Source of the DNA: Aminobacterium sp. MB27-C1
Lineage (GTDB): Bacteria; Synergistota; Synergistia; Synergistales; Aminobacteriaceae
Reading direction: 5' to 3'
Assembly (NCBI RefSeq): GCF_030908405.1
Contig: NZ_CP133089.1
Location: forward strand, 310,001 to 374,000
Length of the DNA: 64,000 nucleotides
The position numbers and the translations under genes are program-made. Every line of letters starts with the position of its first letter. The stretch's first letter is position 1. The notes beneath the pieces were generated by a model that saw only the letters and a list, made by a program, of their open reading frames with translations, searched no databases and was not told the origin of the DNA. Positions 1 through 15,344 of the stretch are shown in pieces.

Positions 1-1068
1 GATACGGGTATTTGTTGTACTGCTGAAAGCAACTAAGGAATGTTTTTGAAGGGATGATGCTTTTTTTTCAAGAACTGCAAGGTGTTCTGTGCTCGCAGCG
101 ACAGTTGTTGTTTGCTCTTGAATTGATGTGTTAATTGAAAAAAGTTTATTCGACTGATCAATTACTAGCTCTGTCGTCTGTCCAATAGCGTCAGAAACGT
201 TTTCTATTGATGCTACTTGTTCTTGAACAAAACAACTGGCACTTGACAGTTTTTGTAAAATTTCTGTTACTTCGTTAAGCATATGATCAAGACCATCTCG
301 ACTTTTTTGCGACTGCGTTTGAGCATCCTGAACAGCACTTTCTGCCGTGTTGATTTTGCTGTATCCGTCTTGTGCGGAATTTTGAATGGCCTGAGCTAAT
401 TTCCCTATTTGTGTAGCTGCTTTTGCAGATTCTTCTGCTAATTTTCTTACTTCATCTGCAACAACGGCAAAACCTCGGCCGGCTTCCCCAGCTCTTGCTG
501 CTTCTATAGCTGCGTTGAGGGCCAATAGATTGGTTTGATCTGCAACTCCTGAGATAGCTTTGACAATATTACCAATGTTTTCGCTAACGGAGAGCATTTG
601 TTTTATAGCTTCAGCTACAGAGGCAGTTGCATCAACTACGGCGAGTATTGTTGTTTCTGATCGAGAGGTGAGCGTTCTATTTTCTTCAGCGAGATGGCGT
701 ATCGTTTCCCCCTGGGTTGCCATATCAGTTATAAGGGTTGCTGTTTGACGAGATGCTTCTGTCATTTCTTTCAGTTGTTGGTCAGATTCCTGAGCTAGCG
801 CTCCCAGTTCTTTAGCTCCTTGGGCGAGTCCATTAGCATTTTCAGATATGACATCCATTGAAGCTGCGTTATCTGTAATAAGAAGATTCATGTCCTCTGC
901 AATAACATCGAGACTGGCTATTTCGTCCCTAGCTCTTTGTATAAATTCTTCTAAGAGGTCTTTTCGGTCCCTCTCTTGATGTGAAGAAGATTTGAGGGCC
1001 GGAAGGGAGTTGCCAGCTGTTTCGGTTTTCCAGAATCGCGAAAAGAAAGATTGGTGACCGGTAGACAT
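1..1068 (-). CDS. Methyl-accepting chemotaxis protein, cytosolic, C-terminus cut by window edge
   Basis: 356 codons are visible, reading off the left edge. The ATG at 1068 follows GGAGGG at good distance. The protein begins [14 protein letters not shown] and has no hydrophobic segment, so it should be a soluble receptor. The chemoreceptor signalling hairpin is clear: [20 protein letters not shown] and then [20 protein letters not shown], the most conserved MCP core that binds CheA and CheW. The roughly 100 residues before the core are helical with no recognisable sensor domain, so any ligand-binding module would lie beyond the window or be supplied by a partner. No che genes are nearby. The family assignment is certain; the signal sensed is unknown. 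Confidence 0.93.
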
Positions 1069-9884: not shown

Positions 9885-10607
9885 ATGGTGGAGAAAAAGA
9901 GTGGTTGTGTTGTTCCTGCTGCTGTAACTGAGGAACATGAACACGAAAAAGATGCAGGCAAAGATTTAGCCATTGCAAAGGAGGAGAGCTCAATGACAAT
10001 TATGGTTGGCAGAAAAGCTCCTGATTTTACTGCTCCAGCGTATCATAATGGAACATTTACATCCGTTAAATTGTCGGATTTTGCCGGGAAATGGGTTTTG
10101 CTTTGTTTCTATCCTGGAGATTTTACCTTTGTGTGAGCTACAGAAGTGTCAGCAGTTGCTGACAGATATGAGGAATTTAAAGAGTTGGGTGTTGAAGTTA
10201 TTTCGATTAGTGTGGACAGTCAATTTGTACATAAAGTATGGAATGATACGGAGCTTTCAAAAATGGTAGATGGCGGAGTTCCGTTCCATATGGCTTCAGA
10301 TGGTGGAGGAAATATAGGAAGAGCTTATGGGGTGTATGATCCAGATGCTGGAGTAAATGTACGAGGCCGTTTTATTATAGATCCAGACGGTGTCATTCAG
10401 GCGATGGAAGTGCTTACTCCGCCTGTAGGACGTAATGTTGATGAAACAATACGACAGATTAAGGCTTTTCAATTGGTGAGAAAAACTGGTGGATCTCAGG
10501 TTACACCTTCTGGGTGGCAGCCTGGTGGAAAAGTTCTTGAGCCTGGAATTGATCTTGTTTCTAAGGTTTGGGAGAAATGGAATCCGCGAGACGTCTATAA
10601 AAAATAA
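9885..10607 (+). CDS. Selenocysteine-containing peroxiredoxin (AhpC/Prx1-like), UGA read through
   Basis: Read through the in-frame UGA at 10134-10136, this is a 240-residue peroxiredoxin. The UGA falls exactly at the peroxidatic position: PGDFTFV-U-ATEVSA, where relatives have cysteine. Sequence on both sides is uninterrupted family sequence ([12 protein letters not shown] before, [18 protein letters not shown] after). A perfect hairpin lies 11 bases downstream (10147-10164). The enzyme would reduce hydrogen peroxide or organic peroxides in the cytosol. The usual resolving-cysteine motif VCP is replaced by VTPSGW, so it may act as a one-selenol enzyme. Two starts are possible: ATG 9885 behind AGGAGG, adding a 36-residue charged extension, or ATG 9993 behind AAGGAGG, giving a standard N-terminus; in the second numbering selenocysteine is residue 48. 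Confidence 0.93.
10147..10164 (+). promoter_or_regulatory. Candidate bacterial SECIS hairpin of the peroxiredoxin
   Basis: TGTCAGCA, GT, TGCTGACA is a perfect eight-base-pair inverted repeat inside the coding region. Its apex lies about 17-22 bases after the UGA and contains a G, as expected of SelB-binding hairpins in bacteria. Confidence 0.8.
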
Positions 10608-14218: not shown

Positions 14219-14923
14219 TTAGAGTGGAGCTGTATAGATAAAGTAAAGACCTGCAATAAGAATAAGAACACCGCAAATATAATTGACTCGTGTCAATGCC
14301 TTGGATTTTTCGTCCCATTTTAAAAACTTAGAAACAAAGTCTGTTGATGTTCCGGCTATGACAATAACTGAGCAGTGTCCAATAGCGTAAAAGGAGACAA
14401 GTAGAAGAGCAAATGGCAGATTTGTCGTTGCTGTTTTTATTGTTAGGGCCAAAAGCGGAGCAACGTATGCAAAACTACACGGCCCAAGGGCCAGTCCGGA
14501 AAGGACTCCAAGTATAAGTGCCCCCAGAAGTCCCTTGTTTTTGTTCGCTTTGATCTCTTTTTGCCCGAACCATGGAAGGGTAATAACATTTAAAAGATGG
14601 AGCCCTATGAGAAAGAAAACTCCAGCAACAAAGTAATTCGTATACAAACTAATGTCTGTCATTAAAATTCCGGTAGATGTGAGTACCATTCCGATAAGCG
14701 CCAAATTAACAAAAATCCCTGCTGAAAAAGCTAAAGAAATAGCAAAAGCACTCGCTCTTTTTGCAGTTCGTGTGCTTTCGATATACCCCACAACAAGAGG
14801 TATAGTAACAAGATTGCAAGGGCTCAGCAAAATGCTGAAAATGCCCCAAATAAAGGCGGCCATTAAAGCAAGCCCGCTTGATGCATGGAGGGTGCTGTAA
14901 ATTGATTCAAATAGATGCAGCAT
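14219..14923 (-). CDS. CcdA/DsbD-type transmembrane thiol-electron transporter
   Basis: 234 residues with six hydrophobic spans. The two redox cysteines of the family are visible in pseudo-repeats: LLSPCNLVTIPLV (span 1) and ALGPCSFAYVAPLL (span 4). The protein should carry reducing equivalents from cytosolic thioredoxin across the inner membrane to an extracytoplasmic acceptor. The gene lies 16 bases after the membrane-anchored selenothioredoxin gene and has its own site AAGGAG, so the two form an operon and the selenoprotein is the obvious electron acceptor. A classical role in cytochrome c maturation is possible for the family but nothing nearby supports it here. Confidence 0.9.
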   Translation of the reverse strand: MLHLFESIYSTLHASSGLALMAAFIWGIFSILLSPCNLVTIPLVVGYIESTRTAKRASAFAISLAFSAGIFVNLALIGMVLTSTGILMTDISLYTNYFVAGVFFLIGLHLLNVITLPWFGQKEIKANKNKGLLGALILGVLSGLALGPCSFAYVAPLLALTIKTATTNLPFALLLVSFYAIGHCSVIVIAGTSTDFVSKFLKWDEKSKALTRVNYICGVLILIAGLYFIYTAPL

Positions 14924-14939
14924 TTTATTCTCCTTCTTG

Positions 14940-15344
14940 TTACTTCTTCTTTATTTGGATACCATATTCTTCTAACTTCTTAAGAATATCCTCTAAAGGC
15001 ATAAAACCCACTTCTTTTCCTAAAATATTACCTTGTCCATCTTCAAAAACGAGAGTGGGGACGTATCGTACTTCATATTTTTTTGCCAATTCCGTATTTT
15101 GCATAACATTAATCTTCTTGACCTGAACGTATTCTCCGTATTGCAGTGTGAAATCGTCCAAAACCTTGGACATCTGAACACAGGCTGGTCACCCTGCTGC
15201 ACTTATATCTATAATTAAAGGAAGAGTAGCAGGTACTTTTGCTATAGTCTCAGTCTGCACTTTCTCCACCTTTGTTCCGCGTAAATAAAATATTCCTGCT
15301 ATTGCTAGAAGAAGTAAGGTAATGATTGTTATCTTACGTAACAT
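14940..15344 (-). CDS. Membrane-anchored thioredoxin-like selenoprotein with UPAC active site
   Basis: Reading through the in-frame UGA at 15191-15189 gives a 134-residue protein that begins MLRKITIITLLLLAIAGIFY, a signal anchor, at an ATG with AGGAGG upstream. The UGA replaces the first cysteine of a thioredoxin motif: IDISAAG-U-PACVQM, that is U-x-x-C at residues 52-55. After it come the normal thioredoxin helix, a strand (VQVKKINVM), the cis-proline segment VRYVPTLVF and a GKEVGF turn. A hairpin with loop GGTT follows the UGA by 17 bases (15171-15156). The domain should face the periplasm and exchange electrons with the CcdA-like protein encoded next. The residues before the UGA are in frame for 51 codons with no other stop, which argues against a pseudogene. 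Confidence 0.9.
15156..15171 (-). promoter_or_regulatory. Candidate bacterial SECIS hairpin of the selenothioredoxin
   Basis: On the minus strand GTCCAA, GGTT, TTGGAC forms a perfect six-pair stem. The loop begins about 24 bases after the UGA and holds two G residues, fitting known bacterial SECIS geometry. Confidence 0.75.

Follow-up and report, generated by a model that had tools for sequence, protein, structure and literature searches.

A CcdA-type membrane protein gene conserved beside a gene for a putative membrane-anchored selenothioredoxin in Synergistota

Within a 64-kb stretch of the Aminobacterium sp. MB27-C1 genome (64,000 nucleotides; hereafter the window), the gene for a CcdA-type membrane protein lies beside a thioredoxin-like reading frame with a single in-frame UGA, located where the first active-site cysteine would be encoded. 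The locus raises two questions: whether this UGA is read as selenocysteine (Sec), and what a selenothioredoxin would do next to CcdA. An earlier note, made from the DNA letters, had described a two-gene unit with a U-P-A-C active site, followed at SECIS distance by a perfect stem with a GGTT loop, and had proposed a transmembrane thiol-to-selenol electron relay. The coordinates of the two genes, the position of the UGA and the hairpin were all correct as described (Table 1). We favor, with a probability of roughly 0.84, the reading that the two genes form an operon and that their products make up an outward thiol-selenol relay, in which electrons pass from CcdA to the selenothioredoxin.

The thioredoxin gene has AAAGGAGGTG 5' of its start, and with UGA taken as Sec the ORF reads MLRKITIITLLLLAIAGIFYLRG...ISAAG-U-PACVQMSKVLDDF.... 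Both flanking genes, a peptidase-like gene upstream and a 13-kb DUF72-like ORF downstream (names assigned by reading), are on the opposite strand, and the unit is therefore limited to two genes; the short intergenic gap and its ribosome-binding site are consistent with a two-gene operon. The thioredoxin scored above the cut-off with both PF00085 (44.5 bits) and PF13098 (44.6 bits), its AF2 model has a pLDDT of >90 across most of residues 41 to 130, and a Foldseek search with that model gave thioredoxins as the best matches. With TIGR01068, the NCBIfam thioredoxin equivalog, it scored 50.5 bits, under the cut-off of 96.8, and it is therefore referred to as a thioredoxin-like protein and not as a canonical equivalog; a search of NCBIfam with this protein found no model above cut-off. 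The membrane protein matched PF02683 with 45.5 bits (cut-off, 27.1), and its sequence profile matched the solved CcdA structure 5vkv (E = 3e-7); the AF2 model of this protein has a low pLDDT, 63. Two cysteines, C36 (SPC) and C149 (GPC), are invariant in 11 relatives, and a profile search identified this CcdA as the only PF02683 protein in the genome.

Table 1. Features of the locus and of related loci. Positions refer to the window unless a locus (L) or residues are named.
Feature	Position	Strand	Basis or remark
Membrane-anchored thioredoxin-like selenoprotein (predicted), 134 aa, U52-P-A-C55	14940..15344	-	Translation with UGA as Sec
Thioredoxin, N-terminal helix	residues ~2-22		
Thioredoxin domain	residues ~40-130		
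UGA codon 52 (putative Sec), in frame	15191..15189	-	Column of the nucleophilic CxxC Cys
SECIS-type hairpin	15156..15171	-	GUCCAA/UUGGAC stem, GGUU loop
Intergenic gap, 16 nt, with AAGGAG ribosome-binding site ahead of ccdA	14924..14939	-	Sequence
CcdA/DsbD_TM-type membrane protein, 234 aa	14219..14923	-	PF02683
Nitroreductase after CcdA	L048 3722-4258	+	PF00881; also L020, L027, L015, L031, L025, L028, L041, L107, L110
Tandem degenerate thioredoxin paralogue	L114 1224-1502	-	
Tandem degenerate thioredoxin paralogue	L124 1538-1816	+	
Tandem degenerate thioredoxin paralogue	L119 1597-1878	-	

For the earlier note, an absence of genes for Sec synthesis would have refuted its reading. They are present: the genome encodes SelA (571 bits), a selB ORF directly after selA (identified by reading the adjacent ORF), selD, whose own ORF also has an in-frame UGA, and a tRNA-Sec with anticodon TCA that scored 73 bits, above the Rfam cut-off. 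Across the window, just three TGA triplets join open frames of at least 40 and at least 60 codons without overlapping another long ORF, and two of these, in the thioredoxin and in a peroxiredoxin gene, have a SECIS-like stem. Downstream of the UGA, the encoded residues are conserved among relatives, and third codon positions account for 40 of the 58 differences between two congeners (G000 and G001); third positions vary most in this region, which is therefore translated. The assignment of UGA codon 52 to Sec is, on this comparative evidence, strongly supported. The peroxiredoxin is a separate candidate selenoprotein, PrxU (9885-10607, plus strand), which scored 404 bits with NF040737 against a cut-off of 270; its UGA is at 10134-10136 (TFV-U-ATE), with a stem and AGUU loop 17 nt after it.

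A search for homologues covered 151 Synergistota genomes, 129 of which gave matches, and the active-site codon was read in the fetched loci. The earlier note had proposed looking for such broken frames next to CcdA. TGA was found at exactly the U52 column in 30 homologous loci from 28 Synergistota genomes, a count that takes no account of how closely the genomes are related, and the remaining catalytic homologues with a codon read have Cys there. In the loci read, same-order relatives included, this codon is never UAA or UAG and never the site of a frameshift; UAA or UAG stops are listed for some relatives, and in the six such loci that were read they fall elsewhere than codon U52. All 28 Sec-form genomes contain selA (two as contig-end fragments only), compared with 41 of 60 Cys-form genomes, 19 lacking it (Fisher P = 5e-4, relatedness of the genomes being ignored, and the Cys state of many of the 60 being taken from search-table entries that show no stop and not from a codon read). 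CcdA directly follows the thioredoxin in 25 of the 30 Sec loci; some Synergistaceae have the thioredoxin, with Cys or Sec, without CcdA within about 1.2 kb, and the pairing is therefore not universal. Host-associated Synergistaceae have a paralogous thioredoxin gene in tandem with the catalytic copy, again with no CcdA nearby; in these paralogues either the first Cys of the active site is gone (SPEC, SSEC) or nothing of the motif is left (SGRE) (Table 1). Another Synergistota genome has a more distant thioredoxin-like gene with UPPC, its U encoded by UGA, away from CcdA (L120, 1156-1440, plus strand).

A tree was built from 103 thioredoxins after masking of the active-site residue; on it, nine changes between Sec and Cys are required, seven of them forced by strongly supported branches; the alignment is short and many forks in this tree are unresolved. 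Outside the phylum, a search that used CcdA as the query found the pair in the same order with Cys (mostly CIPC) in the loci read from Ignavibacteriota, Bipolaricaulota, Fermentibacterota, Geobacteraceae, Clostridia, and others. Geobacterales are a selenoprotein-using order, and the orthologue is present in 92 of 141 of their genomes, with no stop codon among the matches listed. Given Cys elsewhere and no UGA in Geobacterales, the Sec form seems, within the sequences searched, to have arisen in Synergistota. The idea that the "thiol:disulfide interchange" selenoprotein of Geobacter is the same gene is unsupported, the listed Geobacterales orthologues having no stop. No third gene beside the pair was found to be common to all lineages.

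According to the published bacterial SECIS model, the first two loop positions should include a G and lie 16 to 37 nt from the UGA (PMC13188914). The thioredoxin hairpin, with a loop that starts 23 nt 3' of the UGA, satisfies the model in both loop and spacing. Folded as a single sequence it gave a nonsignificant z score of -1.0, and the case for the hairpin therefore rests on comparative evidence. A scanner applying the SECIS constraints, the kind of check that the earlier note had called for, assigned the 31 Sec loci a median of -6.7 kcal/mol, against 0 for 85 Cys loci (rank test P = 2e-16, relatedness of the genomes being ignored). Because the MSKVLD peptide is itself conserved, a control with synonymous recoding was run, and the median P value was 0.023 for the Sec loci versus 1.0 for Synergistota-type Cys loci. 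Cys forms matched for amino acids largely lack the hairpin, and stem positions were paired at 89% in Sec sequences versus 62% in 13 such Cys sequences. Of the 19 Sec sequences that contain M[SA]KVL, 18 form the stem pair +19/+32, as U-A in 13 and G-C in 5, and the swap from U-A to G-C turns Ser/Asp into Ala/Ala jointly; four of the five G-C cases belong to one clade and the fifth (L114) to another. Families f3 and f8 have a different stem further downstream, with a GGA or GAA loop, and hairpins were weak or nonsignificant at three Sec loci (L115, L118, and L117). An Rfam scan of the window at the gathering threshold gave no match, which is unsurprising for bacterial SECIS elements, these being variable. 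One Cys homologue (CQAC; L132, 1198-1470, plus strand) retains a hairpin with an AGTC loop (-6.4 kcal/mol), possibly a fossil SECIS left after a change from Sec to Cys.

A stop codon is literally present in the thioredoxin ORF, and a 77-aa ORF begins at ATG 15173, so the locus could be read as a pseudogene or as encoding a separate small downstream protein that restarts at this ATG. Such a restart would drop both catalytic positions, U52 and C55. An ordinary stop also fits poorly with a TGA that recurs at one column in several families and is never replaced by UAA or UAG in the loci read, with the coding constraint 3' of it, and with a hairpin whose presence follows that of the UGA among homologues; we consider termination at this codon scarcely credible. 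A role for the pair in cytochrome c maturation, CcdA serving a ResA/CcmG-like thioredoxin, is suggested by the name of the PF02683 family and may apply to the pair in other phyla. In this genome, which is 99.95% complete, no protein matched PF01578 (CcsA/CcmC/CcmF), compared with 8 of 14 control genomes above the cut-off, and cytochrome c maturation is therefore excluded here at the profile level, making this role very improbable.

The top NCBIfam match of the membrane protein is ArsG, which would make the locus a detoxification module of an ArsG-type permease and an ArsE-like partner. The scores are far below the cut-offs (ArsG, 59.6 bits against 200; ArsE, 21.4 against 62), Pfam assigns the membrane protein to DsbD_TM, and the invariance of both CcdA-type cysteines also argues against ArsG, leaving this assignment a slim chance. 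More weight, if still little, attaches to a pathway of three components, the third being a flavin nitroreductase that would act as the cytoplasmic donor or as a linked reductase and that the source genome would either have lost or encode away from this locus. In about 10 Synergistota genomes from two families, a PF00881 nitroreductase gene on the same strand starts 22 to 43 nt after CcdA (Table 1). It is missing beside the pair in the source genome, its congeners, and the f3 family, however, and no mechanism is known by which a nitroreductase would act as such a donor; we regard this arrangement as unlikely.

The two-gene relay that we prefer would operate as follows. UGA codon 52 would be decoded as Sec by means of the SECIS hairpin, SelB, and tRNA-Sec, and the N-terminal helix would tether the thioredoxin domain to the cytoplasmic membrane on its outer face. 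CcdA would accept electrons from a cytoplasmic donor through the C36/C149 pair and then reduce the oxidized Sec52-Cys55 bond of the thioredoxin, the resulting selenothiol being predicted to reduce extracytoplasmic disulfides or other oxidized thiols. The Sec coding, the SECIS element, the pairing, and its conservation within the lineage are strongly supported by sequence comparison; we infer the extracytoplasmic location of the thioredoxin, the direction of electron flow, and the reduction of the selenothioredoxin by CcdA.

Delivery of electrons by CcdA to a surface thioredoxin is established for Cys proteins (PMC3914529, PMC7034828), and by analogy the relays of Streptococcus pneumoniae (CcdA-Etrx1/Etrx2) and Streptococcus gordonii (CcdA-SdbB) offer the best functional model. 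In both, as proposed here, CcdA lies next to a surface-anchored thioredoxin-like protein, and CcdA passes electrons to that partner and does not serve cytochrome c; the streptococcal thioredoxins, however, rely on Cys, are held by lipid anchors, and supply MsrAB, in contrast to the Sec and transmembrane anchor predicted here (PMC3914529, PMC7034828). By this analogy MsrA was considered as the extracytoplasmic substrate and rejected for now, the protein having no evident signal peptide. The one MsrA gene that PF01625 detected in the genome (L167, 1303-1929, minus strand) has an in-frame UGA (ALG-U-FWG), and its product is taken to be a selenoprotein. The E. coli DsbD protein likewise has a DsbD_TM core that sends electrons outward to a thioredoxin-like domain, but it is a single fused protein with Cys only, whereas two proteins are encoded here (30.5 bits against a cut-off of 330). 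A fusion also distinguishes TsoB (NF045694), a rhodanese/DsbD fusion-like selenoprotein of 572 positions that shares a transmembrane region of the DsbD type and, at its C terminus, a thioredoxin-like region; against its cut-off of 805, the thioredoxin scored 28.7 bits and CcdA 23.4 bits.

The earlier note had called the use of selenium in periplasmic redox chemistry uncommonly described, and this stands for the combination and not for its parts. Thioredoxin selenoproteins with UxxC are an established family (PMC9312934, PMC13188914). Both Trx UxxC (PF00085) and the "thiol:disulfide interchange protein" UxxC (PF13098) share with the present protein a thioredoxin domain, a nucleophilic Sec, and a SECIS element; the protein here differs in being membrane anchored (as predicted) and encoded upstream of CcdA, a coupling that the accessible text on the UxxC families leaves unmentioned (PMC9312934, PMC13188914, PMC1794560). 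A homology-based survey counted 13 known-family selenoprotein genes in the source genome (PMC12013277), and the selenothioredoxin gene is probably one of them, entered simply as thioredoxin. A search of the literature turned up no description of the conserved combination of CcdA and selenothioredoxin, and the selenoprotein reviews, in their available parts, are silent on CcdA. Each half being known, the phylum-restricted, conserved pairing appears to be undescribed.

Searches of the genome for DsbA (PF01323) and VKOR found neither, and with the selenothioredoxin as the query no second thioredoxin was found at E ≤ 1e-3, this not being a dedicated search for the donor. It is conceivable, though we hold it doubtful, that Synergistota evolved a dedicated outward selenol relay and rely on it mainly or entirely for transmembrane thiol transfer, in cells without cytochrome c assembly or recognizable DsbA/VKOR oxidases; this would be a selenium-powered reducing arm with no matching oxidizing arm, and its substrate may be new for CcdA systems.

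If the proposed relay is correct, selenium would have a part in moving thiol electrons outward across the membrane, Sec being located exactly where these electrons exit the membrane carrier. The many switches between Sec and Cys, placed on one tree and accompanied by amino-acid-matched hairpin controls, amount to a natural experiment on the retention versus loss of Sec, and the coupled Ser/Asp to Ala/Ala change would show an RNA element dictating protein sequence.
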